Shown: piece after piece, positions 40,062 to 55,585 of the stretch
Layout of the letters: every line of letters begins with the position of its first letter
How positions within the stretch are numbered: the stretch's first letter is position 1
Source: Candidatus Cloacimonadota bacterium
GTDB lineage: Bacteria > Cloacimonadota > Cloacimonadia > Cloacimonadales > JAIOQZ01
Length of the DNA: 64,000 bases
Direction of reading: 5' to 3'
Assembly (NCBI GenBank): GCA_021108395.1
Contig: JAIOQZ010000058.1
Location: 1-64,000, forward strand
Made by a program: the position numbers and the translations under genes
Notes under the pieces: model-generated
Database searches by the model: none
What the model saw: only the letters and a program-made list of their open reading frames with translations
What the model was told of the DNA's origin: nothing

Positions 40062-42602
40062 TCATTTCAGCAGCAGCAGCTTCTTCGTTTCCGTGCGGTC
40101 GCCCGTTTGCAGTCGGCAGAAATACACCCCAGAGGCCACCGGCTGGTCATCATCGTCGCGGCCATCCCAACTGAACAAATGCGGGCCTGAGGGCATATGC
40201 TCTCGTGCCAGTGTGCGCACCCGCTGACCACGCACGTTGAACACACACAGTGTGCCGTAGGCGGGCCCGGCCAGACTGAACGCAATATTTGCGCTTGGAT
40301 TGAACGGATTGGGCCATGTGTGCAGGCCTGTTGTCAGTGACGGTGTGTCGTCGCTGTTCACAAGCACCGTTGTGAAGCTGAAGATTCCCTCGTCGTAAAC
40401 GCTATAGCTGTCGGTTACGCGCACCGTGAGCGACCATGTAGAATCCGGCTGCGTGGGCGTTCCTGCCAGAATGCCGTTCTCGTCCATGCCAATCCCCACT
40501 GGAAATGGTTCGGGAAACAAACTCAGGGCGCTGTTCTGTGACAACGGGTTGGCGCCGGATACCGTAGCGACGAGATAGTTGTCGCCCTCGCCTTCCGAAA
40601 CGCCGGCCACCCAGTTGTTGTCGGGTGTGCTGTCGTTGCCATAATGGAAATCGATGCGGCCGTCGTCGTACAATCGCGCCTCGAACACAGCGTGATAGTC
40701 GGGATCGTCGTAGCGAGAGGTGACCCAGCATATGCGGGCGGTTGTGTCGTCCGCCTCGAACCAGATACCGTCTCCCAGTTCGAGATATAACTGCAAATCG
40801 GCGCCGTATGGCGTGATGGCGCACGTCTCCAAGAGGTGTTCGAGTCTGCGGACGGTTGTTGGCGTGGCATCGAAGAAGATCGAGCCGTCGCTGCCAACAT
40901 ACAGCGAATCATAACTCTGCGTATAGAATGGGAAGCTGAACGGCAAGTGCACAACGCCGAGACCATCGTCAAGGCTTGCCATTTCGACCAGCTCACCCGT
41001 GGCCTGCGGCTGTTGCCAGTCGAGCGCGTCCTCTTCGTAGTGGCGAATCATCCGCCAGGTGTAGGGCGGCTCGCCAAACGCCGCGACAAGCTCTGTCTCG
41101 TAGGGCTGACCGGCTATGGCGACCGGCAGCGAGGCCGTTTGAATGGCCACAGCCTGATAGTCGATGATCGCATCGGCCCAGATGCGGGAGACGCCGTTGT
41201 TGACCAGTTCGACGTCGGTTTGAACGCTGCTCCACACGATCGGATCGCCGGTAGTGCAGTCGCAGATAGCAAACTCATTCAGCAGGCCCCAGGCGAGACT
41301 GTCGGGGTCTTGCTCGTGCAGTTCGAGGAACCATCTCGCGGGCTGCCCGGGCGTGATGTGCCCCAGCAGCGGCGTGATGTCAAACCCCAGCTCGAGGGTG
41401 CGATCTTCCGGTGAATCACCGCCCTGCATGAAGAGTTCCCCGCCCTGGTGGTGAAAGTGAGGGAATTCGAGCGTGTGTGTCGGCTCGGTTGCGGTGGTGT
41501 CGGCGTTCACGCCGGCAACCAGTTTGATGGCGTTGCGGCACTCGTGGGAAACGGTGGCTCTGGCGGTGAGCAGCGGATTATAGCCGTCTCGCGCACGGAT
41601 GACGTGAACCATTCCGCGCCATATACCGCCGTCGGGCACAGACTCGGCCAGAAGGTGATAGGACATCCAGATGCGGCCGTCGTCGGCCCAATTATCGCCC
41701 CAACTGTTGACAACCAGCAGCGCGCCGATTTCCCAGTCACGCATGTCCACCACGTTATCGCCATTTATGTCGATGTCGTTGGTGAATTGGCCGTCGCCGT
41801 TAATATCGACGCGAATCGAGTCGCTGTAACCGGCGAATGTCATGGCGTGATTCACGCTGGGGTGCCACTCTGTCACGATGTGTTCGCCCTCATGCGGTGT
41901 GCCGGCCGCCAGTTCTTGCGACAGATAGCCGGATACTCCGCAGGCGAAATTGGCCAGTCCGCCGCTTGGCTCGCCGTTCAGGTAGTCGTTCATCCAGGCT
42001 TTGAGCGTCTCGAGGCCTTCAGGCGTACTCACCTCGATGGCCATCATTTCGCTCATGCGATTGTCCATTCCCACGGAATAGCTGTCGTAGCCGTTCATCC
42101 AGCGGGTGGGGCCGCCTGCGGCAAAGTGACCGCCATATTCGGCCACGTTTGGTACGCCGCCCGCGCCGATGATGTGCCAGGCGTCCCAATACCATGACCC
42201 GCCGCCACCGCCATTGTTGAGAAAGTTCCAGGTGTAGTGGGTAGGATACTGCGTGGAGATCGTGTTGGCGGCGAGTCCGCGCAGGTAGTCAATCTCGTAG
42301 GTGTAGTTGTAGCCGACGCCAGCGGCCTGAGAGCAACTGCCGCCCTCCTGGGTAAAGACAGGCCGGAACCAGGGATGCAGCGTGTTGTCGAGCTCGAAAC
42401 GGCGGAGCGGACGATAGCCCTGGGGCAGGCTCAAGCGGGGCAGTTCGTCCAGCCAGAGAGAATCGGCGGCTGTGAGCGGACGCAGTTCGCCAACAAGCCA
42501 GGGATCGCCGTCAGGGTCGGGATTGAGGTTGCGCAGGCCTTGCGCCTGGGCGGCCACAGCGGTGACGATAAAAAGCAGCGACAGCATCGTACGGATGTTC
42601 AC
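40062..42602 (-). CDS. Secreted papain-like (C1) cysteine peptidase with T9SS-like C-terminal domain
   Basis: Start GTG 42602, five bases after GAGGAGG, gives a signal peptide (VNIRTMLSLLFIVTAVAAQA). The 846 residues carry a C1-type catalytic set: Gln85/Cys90 in FTQEGGSCSQAAG, His252 in VNHAMTFAGY and Asn299 in LVVNSWGDNW. Between His and Asn lie two Ca-binding-like loops (DINGDGQFTND and DINGDNVVDMRD). Downstream are beta-sandwich domains, a putative-Ig cadherin-like segment and the sorting domain (WPNPFNPSANIAF, NVRGQRVRTL, ending KKLLLLK). Probably an exported protease acting outside the cell. Promoter at 42659-42631. Confidence 0.85.
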   Translation of the reverse strand: MNIRTMLSLLFIVTAVAAQAQGLRNLNPDPDGDPWLVGELRPLTAADSLWLDELPRLSLPQGYRPLRRFELDNTLHPWFRPVFTQEGGSCSQAAGVGYNYTYEIDYLRGLAANTISTQYPTHYTWNFLNNGGGGGSWYWDAWHIIGAGGVPNVAEYGGHFAAGGPTRWMNGYDSYSVGMDNRMSEMMAIEVSTPEGLETLKAWMNDYLNGEPSGGLANFACGVSGYLSQELAAGTPHEGEHIVTEWHPSVNHAMTFAGYSDSIRVDINGDGQFTNDIDINGDNVVDMRDWEIGALLVVNSWGDNWADDGRIWMSYHLLAESVPDGGIWRGMVHVIRARDGYNPLLTARATVSHECRNAIKLVAGVNADTTATEPTHTLEFPHFHHQGGELFMQGGDSPEDRTLELGFDITPLLGHITPGQPARWFLELHEQDPDSLAWGLLNEFAICDCTTGDPIVWSSVQTDVELVNNGVSRIWADAIIDYQAVAIQTASLPVAIAGQPYETELVAAFGEPPYTWRMIRHYEEDALDWQQPQATGELVEMASLDDGLGVVHLPFSFPFYTQSYDSLYVGSDGSIFFDATPTTVRRLEHLLETCAITPYGADLQLYLELGDGIWFEADDTTARICWVTSRYDDPDYHAVFEARLYDDGRIDFHYGNDSTPDNNWVAGVSEGEGDNYLVATVSGANPLSQNSALSLFPEPFPVGIGMDENGILAGTPTQPDSTWSLTVRVTDSYSVYDEGIFSFTTVLVNSDDTPSLTTGLHTWPNPFNPSANIAFSLAGPAYGTLCVFNVRGQRVRTLAREHMPSGPHLFSWDGRDDDDQPVASGVYFCRLQTGDRTETKKLLLLK

Positions 42603-42630
42603 AGAAGCCTCCTCACAAGTTCTGCCTGCT

Positions 42631-42659
42631 ATTATGCACATAGGGTTCCAATCCGTCAA
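42631..42659 (-). promoter_or_regulatory. Promoter of the C1 peptidase gene
   Basis: Minus strand TTGACG (42659-42654), 17 bp, CATAAT (42636-42631). Confidence 0.6.
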
Positions 42660-42668
42660 GCTTCGCAC

Positions 42669-44649: not shown

Positions 44650-44682
44650 CGAGTTCTGTAAATGCGGTGGGGGGAGAGTGCA

Positions 44683-45744
44683 ATGGACGAGAATCGCCAA
44701 ATTGTTATTCTGATAGTCGATGATGACGAAGTCATCCGCGACGTTACCAAAGAGATATTGCTCGAAGAGCTGGACTGCCGTGTTGTCGAAGCGACCAACG
44801 GTCTCGAAGGCATCGAAATGGTCGATCGGTATCTGCCCGACCTAATCCTGCTGGACATCGAGATGCCGCAGCAGGATGGGTTCACCGTAGCCAAAATCGT
44901 CCGTGGCGACCCCCGCTCGTGGGACATCCCCATCATCTTCATGACCGGCCTGATAGACCAGAGCACAATCCTGCGCACGTTCGAGGTTGGCGGTAACGAC
45001 TACATAAGCAAGCCCGCCTCGCCACGCGTATTGCTGGCGCGCATCCGTTCTCATCTCGAACGCAAACGCATGTCCGATGAGCTACACCTCAAGAATCGTC
45101 TGCTGATGGACCGTGAGCTGCATCTGTCAACGCTGCTTACCGAGAAAACGAAGGAAATCCGCCTGGTCACTCTGGCCATGATCGAGGCCCTGGAAAACGC
45201 CAACCACCTGAACGATGAGGATACTGGTCTTCATCTGCGCCGAGTGGGACACTACTCCGCGCTACTGGCGCGGGAATATGGCTGTGACCAGAAGTTCGTT
45301 AGCGATATCGAGTTGTACGCATCGTTGCATGATGTGGGTAAAGTGGGCATCCCAGACCACATCCTCAAAAAGCCCGGCCCACTCACGTCCAGCGAGTTCA
45401 GCCTTGTCGAGAAGCATGTGGTGCTGGGGCATCAGATGATCGACCAGCCGGCTGTTGACCAAATGGCCAAGAACATCGTTCTCTATCATCACGAACGCTG
45501 GGACGGCAATGGCTATGTGCACAAGCTCGCTGGCGAGGAGATTCCGCTCGAAGCGCGCATCGTCACCGTTGCCGATGTGTATGACGCGCTTTCCTTCCAG
45601 CGGGTCTACAAGCCATCGTTCCCCGAGGTGGAAATCGAGAAGTATATGAAATCGGCATCAGGCCTTCACTTCGAGCCTGCCCTGGTCGATATTTTCTTCA
45701 ACCACCACGACAAGTTCCTCGAGATTAAAGCCCACACTTCCTGA
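44683..45744 (+). CDS. HD-GYP response regulator (RpfG type)
   Basis: Start ATG 44683, seven bases after GGGGGGAG. The 353 residues hold a receiver domain (LIVDDDEVIRDVTKEI; phospho-acceptor Asp in LILLDIEMP; Lys in YISKPASP), a coiled-coil linker and an HD-GYP domain. The latter has DEDTGLHLRRVGHY, HDVGKVGIPDHILKKPGPL, HVVLGHQM, HHERWDGNGY and VTVADVYDALS, so all metal-ligand positions appear present. Such proteins degrade cyclic-di-GMP (or related cyclic dinucleotides) on phosphorylation. No ordinary histidine kinase is next to it; the two ATPase-less proteins nearby are candidate phosphorelay partners. Confidence 0.92.
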   Translation: MDENRQIVILIVDDDEVIRDVTKEILLEELDCRVVEATNGLEGIEMVDRYLPDLILLDIEMPQQDGFTVAKIVRGDPRSWDIPIIFMTGLIDQSTILRTFEVGGNDYISKPASPRVLLARIRSHLERKRMSDELHLKNRLLMDRELHLSTLLTEKTKEIRLVTLAMIEALENANHLNDEDTGLHLRRVGHYSALLAREYGCDQKFVSDIELYASLHDVGKVGIPDHILKKPGPLTSSEFSLVEKHVVLGHQMIDQPAVDQMAKNIVLYHHERWDGNGYVHKLAGEEIPLEARIVTVADVYDALSFQRVYKPSFPEVEIEKYMKSASGLHFEPALVDIFFNHHDKFLEIKAHTS

Positions 45745-45822: not shown

Positions 45823-46335
45823 TTAGTCGAGGTACATCCCGGCGCAAACCACATACTGCACCTCATCACTGCCGCTAACCAGCAGTCCGTAGGTCTTCTT
45901 GTCGTGCAATCCTTCCTCGTCCGGAATCGTATAGACATAGGTTGTCCAGCCGGAGCCGGCATCGAGCGCAGTCTGCACAATCTCCTTGCGGAACAGCTTG
46001 CCGTGGGCGTCCGGCTTGTCGGCCAAGTTGACGCCGATAAGCTCTGGGTTGGGATGCGCCACCATCGTGGCCGTGGTGTCATAGATGAAAGTATAGAATT
46101 CATGCTCACCGCCGGAGAACGGGTGCGTTCCACTGTTGATGGCTGCGATGCAACCTGCGGCGTTTTTTTCGAGTGAGTCGGCGGCGGCGGCCACAAGGTC
46201 CATCACCTTCTGCTCGGTTGGCGAAGGCGCTGGAGCAGGCTCGGCGGCCTCGACGGTTTCGGCGGCGTTTTGCTGCGGCTGGCCGCAAGCAAATAACGCC
46301 AGCAATACAAAGACGGCAATGAGAATACGAATCAT
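45823..46335 (-). CDS. Cache-domain lipoprotein
   Basis: The 170 residues start with a lipoprotein signal (LFAC, Cys17), a Pro/Ala-rich linker, and a single Cache-like domain: FYTFIYDTTATMVAHPNPELIGVNLADKPDAHGKLF, GWTTYVYTIPDE and KTYGLLVSG. Cache domains bind small ligands outside the cytoplasm; a stand-alone lipoprotein version probably works as a sensor or solute-binding partner. CAGGAGG before the ATG supports the start. Convergent with the HD-GYP gene. Confidence 0.82.
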   Translation of the reverse strand: MIRILIAVFVLLALFACGQPQQNAAETVEAAEPAPAPSPTEQKVMDLVAAAADSLEKNAAGCIAAINSGTHPFSGGEHEFYTFIYDTTATMVAHPNPELIGVNLADKPDAHGKLFRKEIVQTALDAGSGWTTYVYTIPDEEGLHDKKTYGLLVSGSDEVQYVVCAGMYLD

Positions 46336-46482: not shown

Positions 46483-46517
46483 GAAAGTTGTTTTTCTCTG
46501 AATATGTGGAGGAAATT

Positions 46518-47402
46518 ATGCACAATATTCTGTTAATGGACGCCGACAAGGGAATGCTCAGCCTCACTTCGTCAGAGCTCATGGCTACACAGAAAACCGC
46601 CATCGCCGAAATCATGGCCAGAGCCGAGCATGTCGCAGAAATCCCCGACGGCTGGCTTCGCAATAAAATCCTCACAGCCGGCAATCTCCTGACAGCCCAG
46701 TCGCTGCTTCAGAGTGAAGAGGTATCGGTGGTATTCATCAACACGTTGAGCCTCGAAATCGAGAGCATTCAGCTTATGCTGCATCTGAAGCGCTCATATC
46801 CACACATTCCTCTGGTTGTATTCACCAATGCGATTCCGACCTTCACCGACAGAGAGATGAAGCATCATGTCGTGAGCCACTACATCGAGCGCCCCTACAA
46901 CGTCAGCATGATTCAGTTGCGCATCTTCGAGATATTGCTTATACGCATCCTCGATCCTGAATTCGTTTTCGATAGCGGCGTGGGGCTGCCCTCGCTGCTA
47001 CAGCTCATCTATCTTGGCAGTCTCGCCTGCACCCTCCGCCTACAGTGCGACGAGCAGAGTGGGTTCATCAGCTTCCTGCCGGGTAACCTCGTAGATGCAG
47101 GCTGCAACGATCTGAGTGGGGAAGCCGCAATGTTGGAGCTGTTGAACTGGAAGGACGCTACAATCTACATCCAAGCTGGGAGCAGCACGCAAACAGACCT
47201 TATCCTCAAGCCTCTGCCAAAAATTCTGGCGGCTCATTTCGAGAATATCTCGATGGACCAGCCGGAAGAAGTTGCTCGCAAGATTCGCAAAATCAAGGAA
47301 TTCCTGCAATACCTGCTGGCCGGCATCAACCGGCGCGACCCCAAACGCCGTCGGCCTTCACTGTTTGGGGTATGGCGCGGGTTCACCAAAGTCGAAAAGT
47401 AG
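46518..47402 (+). CDS. Pseudo-receiver protein with DUF4388 domain
   Basis: Start ATG 46518 after GGAGG. The 294 residues begin with a receiver-like fold (MHNILLMDADKGMLS ... VSVVFINTLSLEIES ... IPLVVFTNAIP ... HYIERPYNVSMIQL) in which the usual phospho-acceptor Asp is Asn (VFIN). A DUF4388 domain follows (VGLPSLLQLIYLGSLACTLRL ... GFISFLPGNLVDAGCNDLSGEAAMLELLNWKDATIYI), then a basic tail. DUF4388 (PatA-like) domains occur in response regulators of gliding and social bacteria. Probably acts by protein contact rather than phosphorylation. Confidence 0.82.
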   Translation: MHNILLMDADKGMLSLTSSELMATQKTAIAEIMARAEHVAEIPDGWLRNKILTAGNLLTAQSLLQSEEVSVVFINTLSLEIESIQLMLHLKRSYPHIPLVVFTNAIPTFTDREMKHHVVSHYIERPYNVSMIQLRIFEILLIRILDPEFVFDSGVGLPSLLQLIYLGSLACTLRLQCDEQSGFISFLPGNLVDAGCNDLSGEAAMLELLNWKDATIYIQAGSSTQTDLILKPLPKILAAHFENISMDQPEEVARKIRKIKEFLQYLLAGINRRDPKRRRPSLFGVWRGFTKVEK

Positions 47403-48004: not shown

Positions 48005-50071
48005 TCAGTCTTCGCCTTCCTCGCTCTCTGTCGAGTCAAACACGACCATCTCGGCGCCGGAAACATAGCGCTCGAAGTGGAACAGGTCGTTTTCTCTGAA
48101 CTTGTCGAGGATGGCATGGATGGCATCGAGCGCTCCGTTGATACGCTCGAAATAGTGGTTCTGGCGTTCGTTCAGTTGGTTGTCTTCTGTCACCAGGCTG
48201 TCGTGCAGCATATCCATGTTACCACGCAGCACCATCAGTGGTTGATTGATCTCGTGGTTGGTGGTTATCGCCATAGCCATTATCGAGGCCTGGCGATCGA
48301 GGCGAATGATTTCATCCTGTGCCTGCTCGAGCTTCGTGAAGGACTCCTTCAGCGCCTGCATATCCTTTTTGTGTTGCGAAACATCGACCATGACGCCGAC
48401 CAGGCCGCCCAGCGAGCCGTCAACATTGTAGAACACCGATTTACTGATGCGCATATCAATTTCGCGGCCATCGGCGCGCACCACTCTCGATTCATACTCC
48501 TGGTGCTTTGTTTTCAGGAGCCGAAGGTCGTGCTGATGAAATTCTTCGGCCAGGTGGCGCGGCTGAAGGTCAAATATGCTCCGTCCGACTATCTCCTCAC
48601 GAGTATGTCCCAGCAGCAGTTCAAGCTCTCTGTTGCACCCCAGGAACACCCCGCTTGCGTCCTTGTAGAACACCGGATGCGGCAGTTGATCAAGCAGGCT
48701 CTGCAAGAAGCGGTACTGATTCTTCAGCTCGTGATTACTGCGGTTCATCTCGAGGCTGCGCTCCTCGACAAGCTGCTGTAGATTGTCGCGATGCTGGGCC
48801 AGCTCATATTCGATACGCTTGGACTCTGTGATATCCCGAATGGTGCCCACCAGTGTCTTTCTGCCGGTTTTGGGGTCGGTGAGCAGCGTTTTCTTGGTCG
48901 AAATGACATGAAGCTCGCCATCGCCATTGGTCAGGTCCTCGATATTCTCGTTGGCCTTGCCCGACTGAAAAACCTGGTCATCCTTTTCCCAGAAAACATC
49001 CGCCTGCTCTCGCGGGAAGTAATCGTAGTCAGTTTTGCCGATAAGGTCCTCGCGACTGACACCCATGAAACTGCACAGAGCGTCATTCAGCAATATCCAG
49101 TTGTGCTGCTCATCCTTGACGAAGACAGGGTCGGCGAGGGCGTTGAGGATGTCGTCGAAGAACTGGCGAGACACCCGCAACTGTTCACTGGCGTCTCGTT
49201 GCGCGGTTACGTCGATATTCATACATAGTATCTCACGCACCTCGTTCTGCTCGCGGATCGGAAACATCGCCGAAAATATCCGCAGCATACGGCCATCACC
49301 CTGCCGCACATCCCATTCCCGGGTCGCAGAGGCCTCGCCGGTTTTAATCATGCGTTTTACCAGCGACAGAAATTCTCTCCTGTCCACAGCCGACAGGCGC
49401 AGGAGGTCATGCACTGGTTCGCCCAGCGCGTTTTCGCGGGTAATGCCATACAGCCGGGAGCTGGCATCATTCCAGTATTGCACACGGCTTTTACGGTCGA
49501 AACCCATGATGGCTACGCCGGAAGCGTTTTCGAGGACTGCGCTGAATCGGGCGATGCTGCGACGCAGCTCCTTCTCGGCCAGCAGGCGCTCGTTCACCTC
49601 GATATCGAGCTCTACGCCGGCGCGATTGAGCTCATCGGCGCGTTGTTCCATCAATCTATCGTGCTCGCTGGTGGATTGATCGAGGCGACGGCTGAGGCGG
49701 CTGACTTCGCTGTAGTCTATGAGGGAAGCGAAATAACGAAGACGCCCGTCGGTGGGGACAGCAATAACCCTGACGCGCACAAACACGCTGTGGCCTTCAC
49801 GGTGGCGCAACCGCAACGACAGGAAATCGTCGGTTTCATCCTTCGCCAGGCCGGCCAGCTTGCGTTCCCAGAGTTTTCGTTCTTCGGGATGCACCAGGTC
49901 AGTAAGATGCAAGTCGCCCTCGAGGAAGGATTTGGCAGGATAGCCTGTCAGTACCGTTACGCCAGGAGAAACCCAAGCCACCGGCTCGTCAGGATTGTCA
50001 CTCCAGGCGATGAGTACGACATGGCTGTCTTGCAGCAATAGGGACAGAGTTTCTTCGCCAACTGTTTGCAT
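48005..50071 (-). CDS. Multi-PAS sensor ending in a DHp-like module, no ATPase domain
   Basis: The 688 residues, with no membrane segment, hold about four PAS domains separated by coiled coils (first near 15-125, last near 445-560: LDQLPHPVFYKDASGVFLGCNRELELLLGHTREEIVG). The C-terminal 95 residues start RLDRQASIMAMAITTNHEINQPLMVLRGN, with His606 in the H-box position. A helical hairpin and a conserved end (FHFERYVSGAEMVVF) plus an acidic tail follow. A HATPase domain would need at least 100 further residues and is absent. The same module ends the TPR protein at 54350. It cannot autophosphorylate alone. Confidence 0.88.
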   Translation of the reverse strand: MQTVGEETLSLLLQDSHVVLIAWSDNPDEPVAWVSPGVTVLTGYPAKSFLEGDLHLTDLVHPEERKLWERKLAGLAKDETDDFLSLRLRHREGHSVFVRVRVIAVPTDGRLRYFASLIDYSEVSRLSRRLDQSTSEHDRLMEQRADELNRAGVELDIEVNERLLAEKELRRSIARFSAVLENASGVAIMGFDRKSRVQYWNDASSRLYGITRENALGEPVHDLLRLSAVDRREFLSLVKRMIKTGEASATREWDVRQGDGRMLRIFSAMFPIREQNEVREILCMNIDVTAQRDASEQLRVSRQFFDDILNALADPVFVKDEQHNWILLNDALCSFMGVSREDLIGKTDYDYFPREQADVFWEKDDQVFQSGKANENIEDLTNGDGELHVISTKKTLLTDPKTGRKTLVGTIRDITESKRIEYELAQHRDNLQQLVEERSLEMNRSNHELKNQYRFLQSLLDQLPHPVFYKDASGVFLGCNRELELLLGHTREEIVGRSIFDLQPRHLAEEFHQHDLRLLKTKHQEYESRVVRADGREIDMRISKSVFYNVDGSLGGLVGVMVDVSQHKKDMQALKESFTKLEQAQDEIIRLDRQASIMAMAITTNHEINQPLMVLRGNMDMLHDSLVTEDNQLNERQNHYFERINGALDAIHAILDKFRENDLFHFERYVSGAEMVVFDSTESEEGED

Positions 50072-50092
50072 TAGCGTCTCCCTGTTACAATC

Positions 50093-50121
50093 AATATACT
50101 ACCAATATACCTGCCTTGCAA
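50093..50121 (-). promoter_or_regulatory. Promoter of the PAS gene
   Basis: Minus strand TTGCAA (50121-50116), 17 bp, TATATT (50098-50093). Confidence 0.5.
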
Positions 50122-50136
50122 GGTTTTTTCAGGTGA

Positions 50137-52689
50137 TTACTGAACCTTCAGCCGAATCTGGCCGGGCACGCTGAGATTGTAGCCCCTCGAATAATAGAGA
50201 AGGGAATCTTCCCCGTCAAAAAGATACACCAGCGGGTAGGCTTCGCTGTCCAGTTCTTCGCCGCCCACAGGCTGGCCATACAGCACCCGTGCGTCCTTCA
50301 CCTCAATCGGGCGGCGGCCTTCCACCCACACCACCACATCAACGCCGGCGGCGGTCATGTCGGGCAGCAGCCCATGCAGTTGTTCGAGCATCCGATGCTG
50401 CGGCTCGGTGTCTTCGCGGCCCAGCACATAGACCAGTTTCATTCCCTGAGGCGCACCGCCGAGGTCTCTGGCGGCAAGGGCTTTGTCGTCCAGCTCGAGC
50501 GGTTCGTCGCCGCCACGGCGGGCAGGCGTCCACAAGCGCACCACGAGGCTGTCTGTCGTCTCGTCGAGCGAGCGCAGATGCGCACAGGCGTCACCGTTGT
50601 CGTTGCGCGTTACCGCTTCGAGTACATAATGCACATCCGGCTCCTGCGACCACGTAAACACGGCTGTGAGCGAGTCGGTTTCGGCCTCGAACCAGGTGTA
50701 GTATAGCCCGTCTTCGTCAATCGTGGCCAGAAACATGTTGCCGAATGGGTCTGGCGGCGTCGGTGTTCCGTCCACCTCGAGGCGAACAGTCAGCGTCCGC
50801 TCGATTCGCTCGACCGGGTCTTCTTCGTCTTCCTCGAACGCTGTCCATTCCCCGTCGTTCCAGTATTCAAGAAAACCGCGCCAGCGCAGCGGCACGCCCA
50901 GGCTCTTCAGGGCGGATGTAAGCAACACGCGCCGACCAGACTTGCTGATATTGCGCATGTTGAGCCATTGCATCGGGTCGGGCGAGCCGGTGAAGTAAGT
51001 ATATCGCAGTGTTGTATCCACGCTGGTTTCAGCATCCAGCCACTGTTCCACCGCCGCGATAGTGGAAGGAATGTCGTCGCCGCGTAGATGCGCCACGCGC
51101 TCGCTGAAGGGCAACGCCCAGCCGTTCTCCGGGCAGGGGACGCGGCGAAAGGTGCAACCCAGCACATGCTCTCGCCAGATGCTGTCCGGCATCGCCCAAT
51201 ACTGCCGCGCCTGTGCCAGCAAGGTCGCCCGCTGGTGAATAGCCGCGCTGTCGGGCATTTCGATGAGCTCTTTGATGTCCCAATCGGCCAGCATCAGATG
51301 CAGCACGTCGTACACAGCCTCGTCGTCCGCGGCGGCGGCAAGCACGTTCAGCCAGTCATCGGCGGCGCCGGCAAGACGCTTGCACATCTCCAGCCAGGCT
51401 TCGCGGCGTTCCATGTAATCCTCGTCGCTCTCGTCGTCGTCGGGCGACAGCGGGAAGTGGCGCAGGAAATCAAGGGTTTGACGCTGGTCGCGAAGCCATT
51501 TGTCACGGGTGAGTTCCGCCACGCGCTTGCGCAGAGTGAAATCTTCGAGGATGGCTACATCGGATTCGGGCAGTTCGGTGTCGTCTTTGCTCAGAAAGTG
51601 CAATATAAACGTGTCGTCCAATTCCACGTCGTCCGTGATGGTCAGTGTGTGCGTTCCTGGCTTCGAGCCATCGGCGGAACCCATCGCAAAGCGTTCGCCC
51701 TCCTGGGCCGACCAGATGACGTCGGCCCGCCCCAGCGGAATCTCGACACAGCCGTCTTCATCGGTATCGAGCCGCAGCATCCCGAACAGCCCGCCCCAAC
51801 TGACGGCGAACAGCGTCACCTCGGCTTCGGCTACCAGCTCACCCGCTTCGTCCAACACGATGAACCGATGAAGATGCACCGGCGCGTATATCTCGGTGGT
51901 GACCATCGTGGTCACGCAAAGATGCGTCTCGATCGTGCGCGGGCTGTCATACTCGCCAATGGCGTGGCTGGTGATAATCGGGGCGCGCTGCGTGGAGCGG
52001 GTAAACCACGCTGAGGCCAATCGGTTGGCCGGTTCCGCCGAACCCAGGAATGTCCAGCCGTCGGGCGTCCACACCTCGGTCCAGGCGTGGTTGTTGTCGG
52101 TAAAGCTCCAGTTGGGCGCCGAGGCCGTGCGGGCGGGGATGCCCACGCTGCGCGCCGCGGCGATGAACAGGATCATCATCTCCTCGCAACGGCCATAGCC
52201 GCGACGGATTGTGGTGAGCGGGGGCTGGTCGCGGCCACTGGTTGGCTCGAAGCGCATTTTGCCGTCGCACCAGATATTTACCAGAGTGATGGCCTCATAG
52301 ATGTCGGTTATGTCCTCCAGCTCGGCGGAAAGCTCCTCATAGAATGGCTGACGCCAGCGCTGGTATGGCTCCTGCGACACACGCGACGGCAGCACAAAGT
52401 GAACAAACGCTTGCTCGGGTACATCCTGCGCCCAGGGCAATTGCCGGGCAGCGACGGCCAGGCGAATATTGTCGAGCACGAAGTCTGCCGGCAGCGCCGA
52501 GAGGTCGTAGGATGAGGCATTGTCGAGCAGGAAGCGGACGTAACGCAGGGTGTCGCCGCTTTGCGAATCTAACAGTTCGAGCAGGCCGGAAGCGTTGTCG
52601 CCGGCGTAGCGCTCGATGCGTTCGTCGAGTGTCAGGGCCGCCAGGGTTGTGGCGATGAGCAACAGAAATATCAACGTAATGTGGCGCAT
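50137..52689 (-). CDS. Exported transglutaminase-fold protein
   Basis: Start ATG 52689 with GAGGAGAG upstream; signal peptide MRHITLIFLLLIATTLAALT. The 850 residues contain a transglutaminase/protease-like core at about 145-260 with Cys in RRGYGRCEEMMILFIAAARSVGIPAR, His in NNHAWTEVWTPDGW and a following Asp-type position. Beta-sandwich and helical regions follow (about 270-700), with an Asp/Glu-rich patch (SPDDDESDEDYMERRE) and a C-terminal thioredoxin-like segment (MKLVYVLGREDTEPQHRMLEQLHGLLP). It may cleave or cross-link cell-surface peptides. It follows the Wzi-like gene by 43 bp, so they probably share an operon. Confidence 0.82.
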   Translation of the reverse strand: MRHITLIFLLLIATTLAALTLDERIERYAGDNASGLLELLDSQSGDTLRYVRFLLDNASSYDLSALPADFVLDNIRLAVAARQLPWAQDVPEQAFVHFVLPSRVSQEPYQRWRQPFYEELSAELEDITDIYEAITLVNIWCDGKMRFEPTSGRDQPPLTTIRRGYGRCEEMMILFIAAARSVGIPARTASAPNWSFTDNNHAWTEVWTPDGWTFLGSAEPANRLASAWFTRSTQRAPIITSHAIGEYDSPRTIETHLCVTTMVTTEIYAPVHLHRFIVLDEAGELVAEAEVTLFAVSWGGLFGMLRLDTDEDGCVEIPLGRADVIWSAQEGERFAMGSADGSKPGTHTLTITDDVELDDTFILHFLSKDDTELPESDVAILEDFTLRKRVAELTRDKWLRDQRQTLDFLRHFPLSPDDDESDEDYMERREAWLEMCKRLAGAADDWLNVLAAAADDEAVYDVLHLMLADWDIKELIEMPDSAAIHQRATLLAQARQYWAMPDSIWREHVLGCTFRRVPCPENGWALPFSERVAHLRGDDIPSTIAAVEQWLDAETSVDTTLRYTYFTGSPDPMQWLNMRNISKSGRRVLLTSALKSLGVPLRWRGFLEYWNDGEWTAFEEDEEDPVERIERTLTVRLEVDGTPTPPDPFGNMFLATIDEDGLYYTWFEAETDSLTAVFTWSQEPDVHYVLEAVTRNDNGDACAHLRSLDETTDSLVVRLWTPARRGGDEPLELDDKALAARDLGGAPQGMKLVYVLGREDTEPQHRMLEQLHGLLPDMTAAGVDVVVWVEGRRPIEVKDARVLYGQPVGGEELDSEAYPLVYLFDGEDSLLYYSRGYNLSVPGQIRLKVQ

Positions 52690-52732
52690 TGTCTCTCCTC
52701 GTATATCGTTCTTGTGTATCAATTCTCGTGAA

Positions 52733-54217
52733 TCAGTAGCGCGTCTGCCAGGAGACGAACCAGTTGGTTTGTGAGCCGCTGTCACGCTCGGTGTGGGTTG
52801 CAGCCAGCTTGACGCTGTGGTGCGCCAGCGGCAACCAGGTAATGGCGCCTTTCAGGTACAGCGTGTCGGTGACGTCGCCTTCGAGCCAACCGGCGGCGTT
52901 TGACGGGCGCGCGTCGTAGTTTGTGGCGGGGTCGTAGCCCACGCTCCCCTGTTGAACGAAGGTGACGGCGGCATCCAGCGAAAGGCGCGCCGGCAGCGGC
53001 AGGTTGGCCTCGGCGGTGTAGGCGATGAGATTGGCGCCGAGCGGATAACCCAGCCCCTCGCCTTCGTGGGTATAACTGCCAAGCTGGGAGTTGTGCGTGT
53101 ACAGCCAGGGACGGATGGCCACGCCTTCGAGGGTGAGCCGCGGAACGCCGCCGGCAAATGTTGGCGCACAGAACACTACTCCGCCCTGCACTGCGTATTT
53201 GTTGCCCCACCAGTCACCCATGATTTCGGCTATGCGCAGTTCATCGAGATAGCCCTGGCCGTAGAGAGTGAGCCAGGAAAGCGAGCGCCACTCGAACCCG
53301 GCGAAAATGGCGACATTGTCACGGTCGTGCAGCTTGTGCTCTACAATGCGCAGGAAGGTGTGCGGCAACAGGTAGCTGACATCCGGGGCGCGACCGCCAT
53401 ATACGATTGTTTCACCGGCAAAGATGCTCAGGTTGTCGGTTGGCTCGATGTCCAACCGATGCAGCATCAGATACTTCTCGTCCAAACGCTTTTCGCTGTA
53501 CAGTGTGTCCCTGCCCGCAGGCAACAGCGAGGCATGCACCAGGCTGAGGCTGACCGGGCCGGCATCGAGCTCCCATGACGCCCAGCCGTAGTTGCCGACG
53601 GCGCGGCTGAGAATGATGGAGCCGCTGACGCCGTTGCCAACCTGAAAGCGGCCACGCCCCAGGGCAAAATCCCCCCAGTCGCTGGCAGCCACCATCCATG
53701 CTTCGAGATCATCGAGTTCGAGCAGTTCCGGGTCGCGTTTGTGCCAGCCCGTCACCAGCGGCGAGTGTTTATCTGCCCATGGCAGGTCTCCGCTGTAGAA
53801 TCCATACCACCAGCGCCCCCACATGGACAGCCGCGAACCCCAGGCGACGTCAACTTCCGTTCCATAAAGCAGGAACAGCGCCTGCTCGTCCTCGTCGCCT
53901 TCCATTGCCGCCCCGGCAATGGGCGACACCGCGATGACAGCTTTGTCGCCACCCCAGACCAGAAAGCGGTTGTCGTCTCGCCGCGCAAAAAAAGCCTGCA
54001 TCGAAGGCGCGACGCGACGAAGCGGCCAGAGTGCGCAAGCAAGGGAATCGGTAACCGGCAAAGAAAGTGAGTCAGGTGGCGGAACAAGCTGAAAGTGAGT
54101 ATAGAGGCGCGAGTGAACGGTTGGCCGGCGCAGGCCGCCGGGCAGCGTCGGCGCTGCCTGCAACAGGAAACAGAGCATCAGGAGGCAAATGGAAAACAGG
54201 ATATGTCGGCGATGCAT
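52733..54217 (-). CDS. Wzi-like outer-membrane beta-barrel protein
   Basis: The 494 residues start with a signal peptide (MHRRHILFSICLLMLCFLLQA). The mature part alternates aromatic and polar strands and ends in WQTRY, the aromatic-terminated beta-signal of outer-membrane barrels. The middle segment (EKRLDEKYLMLHRLDIEPTDNLSIFAGETIVYGGR) resembles the capsule-assembly protein Wzi group. It could anchor a surface polysaccharide; the MBOAT pair at 14-16 kb may modify such a polymer, but this link is speculative. Confidence 0.75.
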   Translation of the reverse strand: MHRRHILFSICLLMLCFLLQAAPTLPGGLRRPTVHSRLYTHFQLVPPPDSLSLPVTDSLACALWPLRRVAPSMQAFFARRDDNRFLVWGGDKAVIAVSPIAGAAMEGDEDEQALFLLYGTEVDVAWGSRLSMWGRWWYGFYSGDLPWADKHSPLVTGWHKRDPELLELDDLEAWMVAASDWGDFALGRGRFQVGNGVSGSIILSRAVGNYGWASWELDAGPVSLSLVHASLLPAGRDTLYSEKRLDEKYLMLHRLDIEPTDNLSIFAGETIVYGGRAPDVSYLLPHTFLRIVEHKLHDRDNVAIFAGFEWRSLSWLTLYGQGYLDELRIAEIMGDWWGNKYAVQGGVVFCAPTFAGGVPRLTLEGVAIRPWLYTHNSQLGSYTHEGEGLGYPLGANLIAYTAEANLPLPARLSLDAAVTFVQQGSVGYDPATNYDARPSNAAGWLEGDVTDTLYLKGAITWLPLAHHSVKLAATHTERDSGSQTNWFVSWQTRY

Positions 54218-54349
54218 GGGGGCAATCCTTTGTCCGTTTTTGATAGATTACTGAGAAGGGCAATGGCGTCAAGCAAAACCGGATGAAAGAAATAACTTGC
54301 CGTCAGAGCATGATGATACCATTTTATATAAATGGAGGCAGAAGTACTC

Positions 54350-55585
54350 ATGTCAGATATTGAGAACAAGAAAGAAATCATCGATACCATGCTGACACAA
54401 GCGCGAAACAAACGACGCAAGGCTCCCGAAGAAACCATCTCGCTGGCAACTCGTGCGCTCGAAATAGCTAAAGAAATCGAAAGCGACGAACACATTGCCG
54501 ACGCCTACCAGTGGATGGGGATTGGCCATTTTAACATATCGAGCTACGAAAAATCACTCAAGTACAATCTGAAAAGCATGGAGTTGAACGAAAGGCTCGG
54601 TCGCACAAAACACTTCGCCAGCAATCTGTCAAACATCGGCCTCCAGTACGAAGTTCTCGACGATTTCAACAGTGCAGAATATTATTACAACAAAGCGCAC
54701 GACATCTATAAGGAACTGGGCTACACTCTTGGCCTGGCAGGCATCTATTCAAAAATGGGCAATCTGATGGTGGGCAGGGGTGACCTCGAGCAGGGCATCG
54801 CCTACCACCAGCAAGCGCTCGAGCTGCGCCGCCAACAGGGCAATGACATGGGCATCGCGCTCGCCTGTCACAACATCGGCCACATCGAAAGACAACTGGG
54901 CAAGTTCAATTCTGCCATGGAAAACCTGCAAACAGCATTGAAAATCCGAGAGGATATCGACGATAATCGTGGCATCGCCATCACCGCCACCGAAATCGCC
55001 AGAATCCTGATAGTACGCGAGCAATGGGCAGATGCCCTCGCCAAAGCCCTTATCGCACACAACATAGCCAAAGATTGCGGGTTGCGTGAAGAGCTGATGC
55101 ATTCGTGGGAATTGCTGTCCAACATCCAGGCCGGCATGGGCCAGTTCGAGGAAGCTCTGCATTCCCACCGCCAGTTTTCGCAGTTGCAGCACGAGATTTA
55201 TGCTTCGCAGTTATTGATGCGCATTTCCGAGTTGCAGACACGGTGGACCAGCGAGAAACAACAGCGTGAAATCGATATTCTGCGCAAGGACAATGAAATC
55301 CTCGAACTTGAACGACGCAACATCGCCCTGGCGCTGGCTGTTACGGCGAGCCACGAGATGAACCAACCGCTGATGGTACTTCAGGGTAATCTGGAAATGC
55401 TGCTGAGTACAATCACGGCTGTCGATGGGCGGCAAAAGCGTTACATGGCACGAATCGACGCTTCACAGAAGCGTATCCGGAATGTGTTGCGCAAATTCAG
55501 AACAGCCAGCGATATTCAATTTGAGCCATACAGCGAATCATCACCCATGATCGTCTTTGCAGACAACGAGGAGTCCAATCCATGA
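54350..55585 (+). CDS. TPR protein ending in a DHp-like module, no ATPase domain
   Basis: Start ATG 54350, since the upstream in-frame ATG overlaps the GGAGG that serves it. The 411 residues have an N-terminal array of about six TPRs (about 15-290: IADAYQWMGIGHFNISSYEKSL, HFASNLSNIGLQYEVLDDFNSAEYYYNKA), a coiled coil (about 290-325), then the module ALAVTASHEMNQPLMVLQGN with His335. It ends IQFEPYSESSPMIVFADNEE. About 77 residues follow the histidine, and there is no HATPase. The module matches the PAS protein at 48005. Coupled to the PilZ gene by a four-base overlap. Confidence 0.9.
   Translation: MSDIENKKEIIDTMLTQARNKRRKAPEETISLATRALEIAKEIESDEHIADAYQWMGIGHFNISSYEKSLKYNLKSMELNERLGRTKHFASNLSNIGLQYEVLDDFNSAEYYYNKAHDIYKELGYTLGLAGIYSKMGNLMVGRGDLEQGIAYHQQALELRRQQGNDMGIALACHNIGHIERQLGKFNSAMENLQTALKIREDIDDNRGIAITATEIARILIVREQWADALAKALIAHNIAKDCGLREELMHSWELLSNIQAGMGQFEEALHSHRQFSQLQHEIYASQLLMRISELQTRWTSEKQQREIDILRKDNEILELERRNIALALAVTASHEMNQPLMVLQGNLEMLLSTITAVDGRQKRYMARIDASQKRIRNVLRKFRTASDIQFEPYSESSPMIVFADNEESNP

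Follow-up and report, generated by a model that had tools for sequence, protein, structure and literature searches.

How a sensor protein can signal when it ends in the DHp domain of a histidine kinase and carries no ATPase domain is the question raised by two genes in a 64,000-nucleotide stretch of DNA from a Candidatus Cloacimonadota bacterium (contig JAIOQZ010000058.1, positions 1 to 64,000; hereafter the window). Protein P0001 (48005..50071, minus strand, 688 amino acids) consists of four PAS domains followed by a DHp module and a conserved tail, and protein P0002 (54350..55585, plus strand, 411 amino acids) consists of TPR repeats followed by the same type of module and tail. We consider it probable, at a little under 60%, that this ending is a sensor-gated, dimeric HisKA-type DHp module that would act on receiver domains by phosphotransfer, with the tail in the place of the HATPase domain. 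A phosphotransfer module had been proposed in an earlier sequence-only reading of this region and, judged from the comparisons described here, remains the best reading of the ending.

The HisKA profile (PF00512) matches both proteins above the curated Pfam cut-off of 26.9 bits (29.8 bits for P0001 and 37.4 bits for P0002), and Pfam searches gave no match to the HATPase or HPt (PF01627) profiles in either of them. In P0001 the module begins at LDRQAS, extends up to the tail (48083..48301, minus strand) and contains the putative phospho-acceptor His606 (48254..48256) in the motif HEINQPL. It is followed by the tail (FHFERYVSG..MVVFDS, 48032..48082), which is predicted to form a beta-hairpin, and by variable acidic C-terminal residues (TESEEGED, 48008..48031). 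The module of P0002 (55307..55513, plus strand) contains the putative phospho-acceptor His335 (55352..55354) in HEMNQPL, and its tail (IQFEPYSES..MIVFAD, 55514..55564) is predicted to form two short antiparallel strands. Both tails follow the pattern F..Y.....M-V-F and then turn acidic. The start of P0002 was placed at the ATG at 54350, which has GGAGG immediately upstream; a longer reading from 54332 is possible, in which the histidine would be His341. Re-reading of the sequence showed that the coordinates, the strands and the numbering of His606 and His335 had been given correctly in the sequence-only reading. Its claim that both proteins end in one common module was borne out by BLASTP, in which the endings alone align, over 97 columns with 39% identity (2e-18); the alignment reaches residues 682 and 413, respectively, and includes the tail. 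NCBIfam contained no named family for the shared ending and gave matches below cut-off to full kinases, response regulators and TPR proteins, together with a general PAS domain model.

The absence of an ATPase could in principle mean that these are decaying or mis-assembled kinases which lost the domain by a stop or a frameshift, and nothing else than that absence speaks for it. A frameshift just after the two stops, which had been raised in the sequence-only reading, is excluded because the start codon of the PilZ gene lies across the stop of P0002 (ATGA at 55582) and P0001 is separated from the next gene, a small one, by only about 125 nucleotides. A hidden ATPase would not fit next to either gene. 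HATPase_c matches 33 places genome-wide and none on the contig that carries the window (C7). The genome, which is 98% complete, contains nine copies of the module, each read through to its stop and none with a HATPase domain: P0001 and P0002, two tandem TPR proteins and a PAS protein on contig C4, a TPR protein on C2, proteins with a receiver domain (REC) before the DHp module on C15 and C27, and a GAF-like protein on C5. The alignment of the nine copies is invariant at His, Glu, Asn and Pro in the H-box, at Gly and Leu in the hairpin and at Tyr and Met in the tail. With seven further copies in the same genome sharing these residues, it is settled that the resemblance of the two endings is more than chance. 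The modules of the tandem TPR proteins (G000:C4:44337-46232) are 89% identical, and both keep the histidine and the tail. For this one pair of paralogues, the ratio of nonsynonymous to synonymous substitution rates was 0.14 for the tail, 0.15 for the module and 0.27 for the TPR part; the tail and the module are under purifying selection.

To describe the spread of the module, genome contigs were scanned. A single scan identified 40 loci in Cloacimonadota, Calditrichota, Aminicenantes, Marinimicrobia, Zixibacteria, KSB1, Gemmatimonadota, Latescibacterota, Eisenbacteria, Omnitrophota, Deltaproteobacteria and relatives of Bacteriovorax. Nearly all of them stop 60-90 residues past the histidine or continue into a receiver or receiver-like stretch, and a HATPase domain is present in two. 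Profiles constructed for this analysis gave 101 modules that extend into the tail and have no HATPase domain and 39 that fall short of the tail and have one; three apparent double positives all lack the Y..M motif of the tail. All 42 further modules from Calditrichota and the class of Geobacter were also without HATPase, which brings the number of tail-bearing modules without HATPase to 143, with no true case of a HATPase domain among them. The tail and the HATPase domain are mutually exclusive. The refuting condition named in the sequence-only reading, that most close homologues carry a HATPase after the module, thus came out the other way. The module is present in 31 of 40 Calditrichota genomes, usually as one copy, and in 17 of 98 genomes of the class of Geobacter; the HisKA profile is matched by 87 of 98 relatives. 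On a tree of the DHp core, from which the tail columns were left out, the labels tail and HATPase need only two changes and the modules form nearly a single branch. This tree, which has few columns and weak branch support and for which the HATPase-bearing rows were gathered as distant matches, speaks for a single old family but is no proof of it. Two independent truncations, which had already been doubted, are rejected, since the whole contig is free of HATPase and many genomes share the ending. Decay or mis-assembly is refuted by the nine copies and the 143 modules across phyla with a common ending, the contig free of HATPase, the selection on the tail and the near-single clustering on the tree. 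Another DHp lineage without ATPase occurs in other Cloacimonadota families (L125:820-1728, reverse strand, with relatives in L124-L139). These proteins of about 300 amino acids have N-terminal hydrophobic (membrane) segments and a DHp domain with the motif DHD[IL]NNPL, lack both HATPase and the tail, and were treated as separate from the tail-bearing family.

The residues around the histidine were compared in 104 aligned modules. The histidine is present in 90 of these, and in 86 of the 90 the next residue is acidic (Glu in 85); modules that have lost the histidine have nearly always lost the glutamate too. At position +4 a glutamine is found in 70 of the 104 modules, both window proteins included, and an asparagine in 21, including the GAF-like protein of the same genome. 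Willett and Kirby (PMC3510030) showed that the glutamate at +1 in HisKA kinases is needed for phosphorylation of the histidine only and Thr or Asn at +4 for phosphatase activity only; in the accessible text, glutamine is not among the residues tested at +4. A module that only dimerizes or only dephosphorylates should not retain the glutamate, and its retention therefore favors a phosphorylated histidine. The pattern supports a histidine that would be fed by a receiver or by the ATPase of another protein, and weighs weakly against a pure phosphatase.

Receiver genes and receiver domains are strongly enriched beside or within the module proteins. A receiver domain is present in 33 of 98 module proteins, and the architectures in Calditrichota and the class of Geobacter are REC-DHp (28), REC-DHp-REC (12) and DHp-REC (two). 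Across 77 loci, 23 receiver genes were counted no more than 300 nucleotides from the module gene compared to 15 in the next 4.2 kb, with both sides included and with control by distance within loci only, not for the receiver density of each genome. Several operons combine a REC-DHp protein with a receiver-ended hybrid kinase (L075, L076 and L087) or a DHp protein with a hybrid kinase (L182), and in others a stand-alone receiver is combined with a sensor-DHp protein (L082, twice in a row, L180, L183, L188, L187 and L193). The genome of the window itself encodes eight hybrid kinases that end in a receiver. Its HPt domains occur in five places (three CheA-like proteins and two unorthodox kinases), and no stand-alone HPt protein was found in it with the HPt profile. 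Because of the receiver operons, the receiver-ended hybrid kinases and the absence of a stand-alone HPt protein, the DHp module would take the HPt position in a phosphorelay architecture.

Six modules have the histidine and no tail, and all six are encoded beside a module with the tail and no histidine (G104:C1, twice, G104:C141, G103:C25, G058:C97 and G055:C75), unlike the tandem paralogues on C4. The gene order varies by family and the four pairs in G103 and G104 are related, so that the six pairs represent perhaps three independent cases. Among 87 modules with both histidine and tail the tally contains one tandem pair; the pair on C4 is another, missed by the counting rule. The simplest reading of this complementary loss in tandem pairs is an obligate heterodimer in which one histidine and one tail are sufficient. 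The split pairs suggest a dimer and point to heterodimers and a functional tail. We tentatively extend this, at odds somewhat below even, to a family, spread over many phyla, of histidine phosphotransferases gated by their sensors. In this family the tail would stand in for the ATPase domain and act across the dimer, and some lineages would form obligate heterodimers, with histidine and tail on tandem genes and one active histidine.

The other six modules without histidine and with intact surroundings each lie directly before a gene for a mini-kinase which has the histidine and lacks the tail. In L184, L187, L189, L191, L193 and L194 a PAS sensor with a DHp domain lacking the histidine (mostly NDRINSPL) is followed by the mini-kinase, and a stand-alone receiver gene is located directly upstream in five of these six operons, L191 being cut at that end. 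The mini-kinase family consists of sensor-less proteins of about 210-260 amino acids with an odd H-box (HNLNTPLMG, Asn at +1) and an ATPase part that is degraded in most members. The member in the genome of the window is a stand-alone protein of 258 amino acids with the H-box HNLNTPLMG and a partly degraded HATPase domain (G000:C17:21184-21861; L200:3670-4443, minus strand), and its gene is unlinked to any module gene in that genome. The order hflX-like gene, aminotransferase-like gene, mini-kinase gene is kept in three genomes. A mini-kinase occurs in 12 of the 14 module-rich Cloacimonadota genomes; the 111 others have none. This co-occurrence may be explained by shared ancestry, and at comparable strength the mini-kinase was not found in 18 module-bearing genomes of other phyla. 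It was therefore rejected as a universal partner of the module and kept as a rival or additional partner. By its sequence it looks more like ChpT or Spo0B than like a kinase and is possibly a ChpT/Spo0B-like phosphotransferase of Cloacimonadota. The sequence-only reading had also suggested that a separate ATPase subunit might serve the module. No dedicated subunit was found among the examined HATPase proteins of this genome without a HisKA match of their own: the stand-alone candidates are only a 188-amino-acid protein of the RsbW type (HATPase_c_2) and the mini-kinase, and the remaining ones resemble CheA, proteins of the GyrB type or standard sensor kinases.

A single-chain AlphaFold2 model of the module has a predicted local distance difference test score (pLDDT) of 84.6 overall and contains the helical hairpin that is typical of HisKA/DHp domains, with a long helix that bears the histidine (residues 2-76) and a second helix (residues 82-107), both mostly above 84. 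The best Foldseek matches, none of which reaches an E-value of 0.001, are the RetS-GacS DHp complex (PDB 7n0e), GacS and FixL-type DHp domains. RetS-GacS, the closest fold match, is also a case of cross-talk between the DHp domains of two proteins, whereas both partners are full kinases with ATPase domains. The closest DHp sequences of known structure, as judged by the module profile, are those of FixL/YF1 and LvrB (PDB 4gcz and 8vc9). In these a HATPase domain comes next, and the profile match stops before the position of the tail.

In the phosphotransfer reading, a receiver would obtain its phosphoryl group from a true kinase elsewhere, in many cases a hybrid kinase, and pass it to the histidine of the DHp module. 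This histidine would transfer the group to a second receiver, or return it and in this way drain it. By shifting the helices of the four-helix bundle, the N-terminal domain (PAS, TPR, GAF or receiver) may set whether the relay runs. The tail begins where the ATPase would attach, would be needed at least once per dimer, and probably shapes or gates the docking of receivers near the histidine. Several observations weigh against this reading. Neither window gene adjoins a receiver gene (P0002 adjoins the PilZ gene), and the phosphotransfer reading for P0001 and P0002 therefore rests on family membership; seven of the nine copies in this genome have no receiver domain and no identified receiver partner. 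The control of the receiver enrichment by distance within loci only is a second such point, and the two short strands of the tail hairpin are weakly modelled (pLDDT about 63-65). The glutamate at +1 equally fits phosphorylation by an ATPase in trans, the asparagine at +4 in part of the modules makes phosphatase activity compatible with the data, and PhyT, which serves as the precedent, has no acidic residue at +1 (HRxxN; PMC5898713).

Phosphorylation in trans is the core of a split kinase or heterodimer, in which the ATPase of a real kinase phosphorylates the module histidine with the two DHp domains paired, and for which the mini-kinase is the candidate in Cloacimonadota. CheA3/CheA4 provides a precedent (PMC3591291), and ten HATPase genes lie within 300 nucleotides of module genes. 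The retained glutamate, which is needed for phosphorylation by an ATPase, the distribution of the mini-kinase and the six tail-bearing modules without histidine directly before its gene would all fit. The ATPase of the mini-kinase is mostly degraded, however, its H-box has Asn at +1, its co-occurrence with the module may reflect ancestry, its gene is unlinked to module genes in the window genome and outside Cloacimonadota, where modules are common, it was not found at comparable strength; we regard this explanation as unlikely, though still the leading rival. Nearly as much weight can be given to a dedicated phosphatase, in which the DHp module alone dephosphorylates response regulators under sensor control. 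In HisKA kinases the phosphatase activity resides in the DHp domain, the linkage to receivers fits equally well, the modules with Asn at +4 have the residue for it, and a phosphatase role was proposed by Galperin and co-workers for archaeal proteins with HisKA and without HATPase (PMC5847659). It is weakened by the retention of the kinase-specific glutamate and by the glutamine at +4 in most modules, including both window proteins, instead of the Thr or Asn required in the HisKA kinases tested by Willett and Kirby. We consider improbable a regulator like RetS, which would form mixed DHp bundles with true kinases to tune them and take no phosphate. RetS inhibits GacS through heterodimerization (PMC12189002), the top structural matches are to this pair, and the tandem pairs imply mixed dimers, but pure dimerization leaves the joint retention of His and Glu unexplained and the neighbors of the module are receivers more than kinases.

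The proposed phosphotransfer mechanism is of a known kind. Spo0B and ChpT share with the module a dimeric DHp four-helix bundle, a phosphate-shuttling histidine and the absence of autokinase activity, the dimer and the transfer being putative for the module. In both an ATPase-like C-terminal fold is kept, whereas the module has a tail of about 20 residues alone after the DHp domain, and no sensor domain is known in either of the two phosphotransferases. ChpT has been described as a kinase-like fold without autokinase activity (PMC3433190). A tested case is the sensor protein PhyT of Sphingomonas, whose ATPase domain is degenerate and which takes phosphate from a stand-alone receiver and hands it on to a response regulator (PMC5898713). 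It resembles the module as a sensor-bearing, kinase-like protein with a relay through the DHp histidine, which is putative in the module, and differs in its HRxxN-type H-box, in the retained degenerate ATPase domain and in being a membrane protein. The statement in the sequence-only reading that a DHp domain needs a HATPase domain is thus too strict, since in Spo0B, ChpT and PhyT it need not be its own.

The architectural class has already been described as well, which corrects the earlier statement that no named family has this ending. Proteins of the type 'HisKA, no HATPase', or nonenzymatic HK-like proteins, have been named in archaea with suggested phosphoacceptor, phosphotransfer or phosphatase roles (PMC5847659), a family of this type was noted in Archaeoglobus (PMC1183210), and the P2CS database classes such proteins as phosphotransfer proteins (PMC2716373). 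Members have sensor domains and a C-terminal HisKA domain with the histidine and no HATPase, with REC-plus-HisKA forms listed, and P0001 and P0002 fall within this definition. The class is defined by absence and is described mainly in Archaeoglobi and Methanomicrobia; no tail, receiver neighbors or paired genes are described in the accessible texts, and the module is set apart from it here by description only. Searches for proteins lacking the HATPase domain led to these class descriptions alone. In the open-licence papers searched, no account was found of the tail, of the mutual exclusion of tail and ATPase, of how widely the family is spread, of the receiver operons or of the split pairs of histidine and tail.

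The PilZ-domain protein downstream of P0002 (55582..55995, plus strand, Pfam PilZ 43.5 bits) is of the cyclic di-GMP receptor type, and the two genes probably form one transcript. This translational coupling hints at a role of the TPR sensor in cyclic di-GMP signalling, either as an input to it or as a reader of it. The nearest receiver gene found to P0001 encodes a receiver-HD-GYP response regulator (44662..45744, plus strand; Pfam Response_reg and HD_5). No specific link to either window protein was found except its location within about 2.3 kb of P0001 on the opposite strand, and it is a possible candidate partner of P0001. Between the two, Pfam identified a lipoprotein-like protein with a single Cache domain (45823-46335, minus strand) and a DUF4388 protein (46488-47402, plus strand), because of which the region can be called rich in signalling genes. 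Further away, a large secreted protein (40062-42668, minus strand) has, as judged by eye, an N-terminal half resembling papain-type proteases (GGSCSQAAG) and a C-terminal repeat like that of FlgD/Por.

Proteins with this ending are now counted as incomplete or are mis-annotated as histidine kinases, and the signalling maps of many uncultured phyla thus assign impossible kinases and miss probable relay nodes. If the phosphotransfer reading is true, a phosphorelay can take up sensory input at the level of phosphotransfer instead of at the kinase, and the split pairs, with the histidine on one gene and the tail on the other, would offer natural material for testing how a DHp dimer works.

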